Below the pieces are notes generated by a model. The model was not told where the DNA came from. It searched no databases and saw nothing but the letters and a program-made list of their open reading frames with translations. A stretch of DNA of 26,431 nt from a virus. Of this stretch, positions 13,193 to 22,553 are shown in pieces. Numbering within the stretch: position 1 is the stretch's first letter; the number at the start of each line of letters is the position of its first letter. The position numbers and the translations under genes are program-made. The stretch lies in the IMG/VR virus record IMGVR_UViG_3300031576_000521, positions 1 through 26,431 of that record; one strand, 5' to 3'.

Positions 13193-13585
13193 ATGAGTGC
13201 GCTGACCGATTTCGGCGAGAACAAACTAATCGACCACTTCTTCAATGTGGCTTCCTACACCGCGCCGAGCGTGTATTGCGGGCTGTTTTCCACGTCGCCC
13301 GACGATGCAGCCAGCGGCCTCGAGGTCAGCGGCGGCGGCTATCTACGGCAGCGCGTCGTCAACTGGGATACGTCGGCGTCGGGTGCGACAGAGAACTCCA
13401 GCGCGATTACCTTCCCGCAAGCGACGGCGAGCTACAACGTCCTCGCCGTGGGCCTGATGGACGGATCGACTGCGGGCTGCGCGACGAATATGTGGTGGTA
13501 TGGCAAGCTCTCCACATCGCGCCTGGTCAACCAGAACGATACGTTCGAGATCGCCGCATCCAGCCTGGATGTGACACTCGCTTGA
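13193..13585 (+). CDS. Phage tail fibre-like or adhesin domain protein, 130 aa
   Basis: Begins MSALTDFGENKLIDHFFN and continues with VYCGLFSTSPDDAASGLEVS, then GGGYLRQRV, ITFPQATASYNVLAVGLMDG and WWYGKLSTSRLVNQNDTFEI. This arrangement is common in small phage proteins annotated as tail-fibre or hypothetical virion proteins. Such proteins are beta-rich and may decorate the head or tail tip. It starts one base after the previous stop. Exact role unknown. Confidence 0.68.
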   Translation: MSALTDFGENKLIDHFFNVASYTAPSVYCGLFSTSPDDAASGLEVSGGGYLRQRVVNWDTSASGATENSSAITFPQATASYNVLAVGLMDGSTAGCATNMWWYGKLSTSRLVNQNDTFEIAASSLDVTLA

Positions 13586-21414: not shown

Positions 21415-21443
21415 GCATTTCAGGAACACGACAAGGAGGCAGT

Positions 21444-21472
21444 ATGCCATTCATACACGGATTGAACGGGGT
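21444..21472 (+). CDS. Tail tube protein, exon 1
   Basis: AAGGAGG lies a few bases before ATG 21444. The exon encodes MPFIHGLNG plus the first two bases of a valine codon. Unspliced, the frame stops at TGA 21477-21479. MPFIHG-type starts are typical of phage tail tube proteins. The exon ends at T21472, the U of the U.G pair in P1 of the intron. Joined to 22148-22553 the frame is intact: 29 + 406 bases give 144 residues. Confidence 0.8.
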
Positions 21473-21541
21473 TAAGTGATAGCCCCTCTGCGCGGTGACG
21501 CGCAGAGCAAACCCGGAATATCGGTGGAAGCCTGAGAAGTC

Positions 21542-21943
21542 TCAGGTGATGTGATAGAAGGCGAATACACCAGACTTTTCAAGATAATGGCGATAGATAT
21601 GACAGGTAGGACACAGGATGACAAGGTTAGAGAGATCCCCATTGGTTCTATCATGATCGACATGATGAACCTGAAGAACCATCTTAGCCTTGTTCCATCC
21701 GCAATCCGCACATCTTTCACCATGATGACTCATGGCCTCAGTGCGATGCTGGGCCGTATCACGTCTTGGTTGATAGACGATTCTCTGTCTTTCTCGTATC
21801 TGTTCTTGATTAGTTTGGTAATAAGCCTGCGGGGTCCCGCGTTTCTTTTGAATACTCCAATGGCAATGATGACAATAGCGGCCATTTTGTGCTGGCCGTT
21901 CTTGGCACATCACACATGGTCCGATGTGTTTTTTTCTCGGCAT
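21542..21943 (-). CDS. HNH homing endonuclease, antisense within the intron
   Basis: A 133-residue protein. An N-terminal zinc finger uses C10, C13, C24 and C27. The HNH nuclease has CADCGW (C78, C81), VHHVDH (93-97), NLVILCPTCH with N106 and the C111/C114 pair. Homing endonucleases of this type cut intronless alleles and spread the intron. AGGAAGG (21949-21955) is 5 bases before the ATG on the minus strand, and an extended -10 promoter lies upstream. Two lines of its coding sequence count 47% GC, below the GC-rich phage genes. Its stop codon lies in an intron hairpin (21531-21546). Opposite orientation to the host gene is unusual. Homing activity is inferred. Confidence 0.85.
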   Translation of the reverse strand: MPRKKHIGPCVMCQERPAQNGRYCHHCHWSIQKKRGTPQAYYQTNQEQIRERQRIVYQPRRDTAQHRTEAMSHHGERCADCGWNKAKMVLQVHHVDHDRTNGDLSNLVILCPTCHIYRHYLEKSGVFAFYHIT

Positions 21944-21957
21944 GTCAGCCTTCCTCT

Positions 21958-21974
21958 CGGTGTTTCTTACACCG
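21958..21974 (-). other. Leader hairpin upstream of HNH start
   Basis: On the minus strand CGGTGT-AAGAA-ACACCG forms a perfect 6-bp hairpin between the promoter and the ribosome site of the HNH gene. Confidence 0.5.
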
Positions 21975-21975
21975 A

Positions 21976-21984
21976 ATTATATCA
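21976..21984 (-). promoter_or_regulatory. Extended -10 promoter for HNH gene
   Basis: Minus strand reads TGATATAAT, i.e. TGn followed by consensus TATAAT, about 35 bases upstream of the start. No good -35 box is seen, as is usual for extended -10 promoters. Confidence 0.6.
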
Positions 21985-22147
21985 TATTCCTGAGCGGTAA
22001 CGCCGAGGCACAGGCCGCAAGGCAAGGCCGTAACGACTACCAACGGGCGACTCCCTGAGTCGATGGCATAGTCTGGTCTGCAACGAAATGAAGTTGCAGA
22101 GGCGCACAGAGATGACGCGCCCCCGCGAAAGCGGAGTAACAGAAACG

Positions 22148-22553
22148 AATTTTCGTGTGGGATTCCGCCGGCACGTGTCGCAACGTGAGCGGCGATCTCA
22201 ACAGCGTCACGCTGGCGTGGACGCGCGATAACCCGGATACGACGACGCTGGGCAAGGTGAATGTCCAACGCATCACGGGCATCCGCGACGCGCAACTGTC
22301 CGGCGCGGGCATCTGGAATTCGGACAACACGACCGGCACGGACGACATCTTCTCTGCGCTCATGGGCGCCAGCAATGTCCATACGATGGTCGCGTGGGCG
22401 CCGGCTGGCTGCGCCGTATCGGGCTGTCCGCTGTACTCCGGCTGTTTCCAGATCAGCCAGTACGAACCCACTGGCCCGGTCAACGGCCCGGTCGCGTACA
22501 ATTGGACATTTCAGTTGTCGAGCGGCTCGATCACCGCCGGCAGCGTCGCGTAA
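22148..22553 (+). CDS. Tail tube protein, exon 2
   Basis: The exon continues the protein as (V)IFVWDSAGTCRNVSGDLNS and LAWTRDNPDTTTLGKVNVQR, followed by DIFSALMGASNVHTMVAWAP and ending NWTFQLSSGSITAGSVA. The D..TTLGK stretch and terminal beta strands are characteristic of siphovirus tail tube subunits, which polymerise around the tape measure. A GTG at 22155 could be mistaken for the start but has no ribosome site and lies in the middle of a beta strand. Position before the G/GT chaperones and tape measure supports the assignment. Confidence 0.8.

Follow-up and report, generated by a model that had tools for sequence, protein, structure and literature searches.

The window analyzed here, the whole of a linear 26.4-kb viral record, contains a tail tube gene whose reading frame is broken close to its start (Table 1). 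Specifically, translation of the unspliced gene from the ATG at 21444 gives MPFIHGLNGVK and then reaches TGA after 11 codons, and joining T21472 to A22148, with the 675 nt between them (21473-22147) removed, gives a single frame of 144 codons and a stop. The joined protein of 144 aa begins MPFIHGLNGVIFVWDSAGTCRNVSGDLNSV..., and the peptide expected across the exon junction is GLNGVIFVWDSAG.... The interruption has the features of a group I intron, and in the loop of its P5 lies an intact ORF for an HNH homing endonuclease in antisense orientation, with all other genes identified in the window carried on the plus strand.

Table 1. Features of the split tail tube gene, its intron, and the antisense HNH gene (window coordinates).
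Feature	Position	Strand	Evidence
Tail tube gene Shine-Dalgarno, AAGGAGG	21433-21439	+	sequence
Tail tube exon 1 (MPFIHGLNG and first two bases of codon 10)	21444-21472	+	homologues share start residue; last base U pairs with G21482
Predicted group I intron (675 nt; terminal base G22147)	21473-22147	+	structure, covariance model, family covariation
P1 GGGGUU/AGCCCC (21468-21473 with 21481-21486); U21472.G21482 wobble at 5′ splice site	21468-21486	+	sequence, covariance model
P2, 8 bp, GUGA loop	21487-21506	+	sequence, covariance model
5′ strands of P3 (21512-21515), P4 (21522-21526), and P5 (21530-21532)	21512-21532	+	partners 22044-22047, 22001-22005, 21996-21998
AT-rich insertion in P5 loop, 452 nt, 45% GC (63% for whole window); flanking direct repeat CCTGAG (21531-21536, 21989-21994)	21537-21988		L105 comparison
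HNH homing endonuclease ORF, 133 aa; N-terminal zinc-ribbon-like CxxC..CxxC, HHV...N...H core	21542-21943	-	Pfam, PHROG
Extended -10 TGATATAAT (21984-21976), hairpin CGGTGT-AAGAA-ACACCG (21974-21958), Shine-Dalgarno AGGAAGG (21956-21950)	21949-21984	-	sequence, consensus match
3′ strands of P5 (21996-21998) and P4 (22001-22005); P6 (22007-22009 with 22027-22029); P6a	21996-22029	+	covariance model
P7 GACUA (22035-22039)/UAGUC (22069-22073); P3 3′ strand (22044-22047); P8 (22048-22053/22057-22062)	22035-22073	+	covariance model, family covariation
P9 (22078-22099); P9.1 with family CAGAAAUGA-type loop (22101-22121); P9.2 GAAA hairpin (22123-22134)	22078-22134	+	covariance model, family covariation
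Tail tube exon 2 (from the third base of codon 10 through codon 144 and the stop)	22148-22553	+	protein matches, alignments, frame join

Residues 3-141 of the joined tube protein matched the PHROG major tail protein in a profile search (E 2.4e-16), and the Pfam model Phage_tail_2 matched the same protein weakly. From residue 1 onward the protein was colinear with proteins annotated as major tail in Microcystis phage Mae-JY09 and in the Arthrobacter phages Ottawa and Kovu; M1, F3, H5, and G6 were invariant in the alignment. Moreover, the uninterrupted tube gene of locus L006, the product of which is 59% identical over residues 1-143, contained the exact empty site, ATGCCATTCAGTCACGGTCTTCAGACGGT^CATTTGG (ACGGT^CATTTGG), and exact removal of the insert thus restores the frame of a conserved protein, as is expected of a group I intron. 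A protein search for related loci with the exon 2 product alone gave no match. Because the joined protein aligns from residue 1 with intron-free homologues and L006 has the empty site, the tube gene is truly split, and calling its start at GTG 22155 would truncate it. The initial annotation had proposed this split from the same Shine-Dalgarno sequence, ATG, and early stop, with the same junction after a terminal G, and had warned of the truncated call at GTG 22155; the alignment with intronless tail tube proteins that it called for upheld these proposals, as the homologues share the start at residue 1 and a conserved N-terminus. A programmed frameshift in the tube gene is ruled out by the 675-nt interruption together with the continuous homologues.

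The core of the intervening sequence followed the order P3-P4-P5-P6-P7-P3′-P8-P7′, with the conserved P3-P8 and P4-P6 elements and a P3/P7 pseudoknot, and the U.G wobble of P1 (U21472.G21482) and the terminal G22147 lay at the splice sites. P3 comprised only 4 bp and P9.1 contained one mismatched pair, while inspection by eye for P10 pairing of exon 2 with the guide region found none. P1 with its U.G pair, P2 with the GUGA loop, P3, P7 (GACTA/TAGTC), P8, P9, P9.1, and the GAAA hairpin had been listed before, and all are present. The earlier reading was therefore incomplete rather than wrong: its intron identity and splice sites stood, but it had overlooked the antisense HNH gene and the P4, P5, and P6 elements that the HNH insertion splits, as well as an ORF-less copy elsewhere and the precedents of Twort orf142 and of the LittleE and BAKA introns.

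We then relied on covariance models for an assessment of group I identity. A model trained on the introns of L105, L106, L114, and KLEP7 only (R1), from which the tube intron was left out, matched the 3′ half of the tube intron at 21930-22152 (123.4 bits, E 2.2e-34) and the 5′ half at 21462-21679 (36.3 bits, E 1.7e-9), the intron being found as two halves because of the 452-nt segment in the P5 loop. R1 was built from alignment A3; the MAFFT alignment A2 misplaced the 5′ half of the Wanda intron and was excluded from counts. The Rfam model RF00028 (Intron_gpI), by contrast, gave no match in the window with any of the thresholds applied, so that the tube intron fails to score with this family model; subthreshold Rfam matches in the window (rne-II on the minus strand, snoR113, mir-600, and sucC) were taken as chance. 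The lack of a covariance-model hit, which the initial annotation had named as grounds for abandoning the intron, thus did literally occur with RF00028. We attribute it to the limited sensitivity of that model and not to the lack of any defining group I feature, because relatives of the tube intron do pass: four of 20 tested family loci reached the Intron_gpI cut-off (L201, 86.8 bits; L128, 79.3 bits; L196; and L234), with L106 (36.5 bits, E 5.6e-8) and LittleE (30.7 bits) falling below it.

A search with the P9-P9.1 signature returned at least 120 viral contigs, and nearly all of those listed were recognized by R1. In the resulting family alignment of 96 rows (93 distinct), which was fitted to the R1 model and favors helices other than P7 to some degree, 94.4% of pair cells in the distinct rows were standard pairs, changes on both sides were seen in 43 of 51 pairs, and the covariation score was 0.627, as compared to 0.157 in shuffles and no more than 0.076 with partners slid. 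P7, though absent from the model structure, was 99.8% paired across the family, and U.G was the commonest type of pair at the 5′ splice site (66 of 96 rows; 64 of the 93 distinct rows). Given the R1 matches, the family covariation, the members that pass Rfam Intron_gpI, and the RT-PCR-proven splicing of the LittleE and BAKA relatives, the assignment of the tube insert to the group I introns, made from its sequence, is secure. That the splice sites are exactly those proposed is supported by the intron-free homologues with the same N-terminus, by a covariance model free of the window, and by the family members that pass Intron_gpI. For the tube-intron phage itself, self-splicing is what we infer from these analyses.

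Copies of the intron were present in other genes. The P7-P8-P7′ signature TAACGACTACCN{10,40}GGCATAGTC, searched in IMG/VR, had four matches (L104, L105, L106, and L107), all of which were real introns; the same P7-P8 signature had five matches in bacterial genomes, which contained no other intron elements and were discarded as chance. L105, from a relative of the tube-intron phage (capsid 86% identical), contained an ORF-less copy of 215 nt, whose 3′ core was 93% and whose 5′ part was 90% identical to the tube intron. Its host gene is a homologue (74% identical) of the gene at 13193-13585, which is uninterrupted in the tube-intron phage, and the product (13193-13585 and L105:1517-2124) matched Pfam Gp80, a podophage fiber protein. 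L106 likewise had an ORF-less copy (224 nt), in a host gene read as a capsid gene, and the L104 and L107 introns each had an ORF on the sense strand. A second pattern search exposed an ORF-less copy of 223 nt in another tail-protein-like gene, close to its start (L114); L113, L115, and L117 proved to be chance matches of the P4 pattern. With an ORF-less copy as query, a DNA search identified relatives in phage KLEP7, in a ribonucleotide reductase gene, and in cluster J mycobacteriophages; the whole 675-nt intron as DNA query had no match in known phages.

The predicted splice joins gave continuous frames in L105, L106, L107, and L114. Additionally, the guide matched the local exon in each gene, as GGGGU/GCCCC in the tube gene and GGAU/GUCC in L105, with own-exon matches also in L106 (GCCU) and L114 (GGGU) and, by eye, in KLEP7 (CCGU) and L107 (GUGGU). 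The presence of related cores in different genes, each with a guide that fits its local exon, indicates that the intron moved to new genes with P1 re-matched. A short sequence is common to the L105 site (GGAT^CATTTG) and the site in the L006 tube gene (CGGT^CATTTG), which may be meaningful or mere chance. Homing by an endonuclease would account for spread among alleles at the same site, but not for the ectopic step between the tube gene and the L105 gene, which may have gone by way of reverse splicing or recombination.

The antisense gene itself lies within a segment that the L105 copy lacks, the similarity of the tube intron to this ORF-less copy ending at 21537 and restarting at 21998. Its product scored above the cut-off for Pfam PF01844 (28 bits, E 2.4e-6) and matched the PHROG HNH family (E 6e-9), and the intact ORF is preceded by a ribosome-binding site, with the Shine-Dalgarno sequence AGGAAGG ending 5 nt ahead of the ATG on the minus strand. 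A promoter scan yielded no complete sigma-70 -35/-10 pair for the gene, and for this reason expression of the gene is presented here as probable only. Upstream of the ribosome-binding site, a perfect 6-bp inverted repeat (CGGTGT/ACACCG, 21958-21974) may form a hairpin involved in translational control. With one CCTGAG copy removed, P5 reads GCC-UGAGC-GGU, as compared to GCC-UGCGAU-GGU in L114 and GGC-UGAGAU-GCU in L105, and P5 of the tube intron can still close (GCC/GGU), as in L114. The simplest history would be that an endonuclease gene later invaded an ORF-less intron. Among the full-length relatives of the HNH protein that we saw, the closest (29% identity over 130 aa) is encoded on the sense strand inside a family intron (L229), and no homologue of the HNH gene sharing its intron position and orientation was found elsewhere. 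Relatives in known phages were distant (at most about 50% identity over 40-55 residues), and a locus search based on the HNH gene had a single match, L002, which was rejected as an HNH gene unrelated to any intron.

Taken as a whole, we consider it highly probable that a group I intron resides in the tube gene and that its ORF-less form was later invaded in P5 by an antisense HNH gene that confers mobility. The frame, the splice junction, the covarying structure, the family, and the identity and integrity of the HNH ORF are computed results, and splicing in this phage, antisense expression, and the target and activity of the enzyme are predictions. The intron interrupts the major tail (tube) gene after codon 9 and two bases, and P1, holding the U.G splice site, would allow excision with exogenous guanosine during late transcription, such that U21472 is ligated to A22148 and full-length tube protein is made. 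The ancestral ORF-less intron would have measured about 220 nt before the HNH gene entered the P5 loop in antisense, and a promoter of its own, on the opposite strand, probably drives that gene. The enzyme is predicted to cut intron-free tube alleles, upon which the intron, or the HNH gene itself, would be copied and hence be mobile.

A second reading, to which we assign an appreciable but lesser probability, accepts the intron and regards the HNH gene as a passenger of the free-standing type in P5, one that targets the intron or some other site while the intron moves otherwise, for example by reverse splicing. The antisense orientation of the gene, its AT-richness, and its position between CCTGAG direct repeats are consistent with such a passenger, as are HNH genes that adjoin family introns but lie outside them in L122 and L185, and an ORF-less core with a re-matched guide, located in another gene in a related phage, is an outcome that endonuclease homing alone does not yield. 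However, a place in a group I intron loop is the usual one for homing endonucleases, and the related HNH gene of L229 sits in sense orientation inside a family intron. The HNH gene of L122 was rejected as an antisense gene inside an intron, since it sits past the terminal G. A further tail-protein-like gene, in L185 (6890-7960), has an intron very close to its start (MATGIKRLRKIQLG^HEGTPGSAV...), and the antisense HNH gene is just upstream of that intron.

The possibility that the insert is degenerate and no longer splices, with a truncated tube protein made from GTG 22155, is very unlikely. The 452-nt insertion in P5, the P9.1 mismatch, and the Rfam miss might be expected of a decayed intron, but every core helix is intact and P5 remains closable, and the truncated product would be without the N-terminus conserved in homologues, would start from a GTG with no evident Shine-Dalgarno sequence, and would replace a protein that is expected to be essential. 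An assembly artefact fusing two sequences is scarcely credible. The source is a single metagenomic contig, but the fit of its exons is exact to the base and yields a colinear protein, and the intron core recurs at other sites, with exact joins, in independent contigs (L105, L106, L107, and L114).

The group I intron with its HNH gene in P5, as favored above, appears to be one member of a wider lineage. We compared the 3′ exons of 40 introns, picked for a readable exon and not for function, to PHROG, and the families matched were almost all virion structural (major head, major tail, tape measure, portal, and minor tail), with one ribonucleotide reductase; this tally covers the 25 families seen most often out of 38, several of which could be matched by a single member. 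A Pfam rescan agreed, save for one glycosyltransferase domain. Across L121-L238, the P9-P9.1 element was almost invariant (loop CAGAAAUGA), scores were mostly below the Rfam cut-off, and hosts were nearly all virion structural genes. In L200, L219, L227, L141, L127, L161, and L196, three to five family matches lay within a few kb of one contig and were apparently tandem introns in one gene or in adjacent genes.

Phage group I introns have been summarized as favoring genes of nucleotide and DNA metabolism (PMC11878797, PMC12350094), in contrast to the occurrence of this lineage almost only in virion genes among the introns scanned. We see an evenly balanced case for a large, mostly unannotated phage group I intron lineage that prefers the late genes of the virion (head, tail tube, tape measure, and portal), is carried by interchangeable HNH and LAGLIDADG enzymes in sense or antisense at varied positions, and moves to new genes with its guide retargeted. 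If so, the tube intron and its L105 counterpart, with 90-93% identical cores in two genes and two matched guides, would represent a recent jump. How a group I intron gains a new target could be studied cleanly in this natural pair. The analysis corrects the annotated gene for an abundant virion protein, and the few tested loci that reach the Rfam cut-off, together with the tube intron that does not, indicate that standard Rfam annotation overlooks the lineage in most places. The antisense endonuclease, moreover, poses a regulatory question, as its transcript would be antisense alongside high late transcription of the tube gene.

Several components of this arrangement were already known, namely introns in a tail tube gene, from Twort, and an antisense endonuclease with ORF-less sister introns, from LittleE and BAKA. 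Twort orf142 contains several introns, which are of subgroup IA2. This gene of Staphylococcus phage Twort is described as a tail tube gene with introns (PMC11878797), and our likening of it to the tube gene here is by description; Twort belongs to a different phage group. RF00028 has its core order in common with the tube intron and scores several R1-family members above its cut-off, but leaves the tube intron itself undetected. The intron Dsq.L2066 of Didymium (PMC9548176) similarly has an antisense homing endonuclease gene in a peripheral loop that needs its own promoter, but it differs in residing in eukaryotic rDNA, in its His-Cys enzyme, in the location of the endonuclease gene in P9.2, and in its unrelated ribozyme subgroup (IE). 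The HNH domain is shared with enzymes of PF01844 and PHROG 8048, and is typical of phage homing enzymes, although the sequence kinship is distant.

The nearest precedents were found in mycobacteriophages, where introns interrupt the major capsid gene of LittleE and a minor tail gene of BAKA and Optimus (Pope et al. 2013, PMC3706429). R1 matched LittleE at 64.5 bits and Wanda, which has the BAKA-type site, at 63.1 bits, over the core and P9-P9.1, and these introns have in common with the tube intron their family, a virion structural host gene, and an ORF-less copy at another site in related phages. Splicing of the LittleE and BAKA introns was proven by RT-PCR, with exon 1 ending in U and the intron in G (PMC3706429), as predicted for the tube intron, which is located in a tail tube gene of a different phage. 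In LittleE, as here, the endonuclease gene (gp14) is opposite to the host gene, on the minus strand; it is, however, of LAGLIDADG type (PF14528), and its ORF overlaps and follows P9.1. Gp14 (L119:2036-2569, minus strand) is annotated as an HNH endonuclease, and its Pfam match is LAGLIDADG_3, not HNH. Judged by these matches, the tube intron is a member of the LittleE/BAKA lineage that differs in the type of its endonuclease (HNH versus LAGLIDADG) and in the loop that holds it (P5 versus the end of P9.1).
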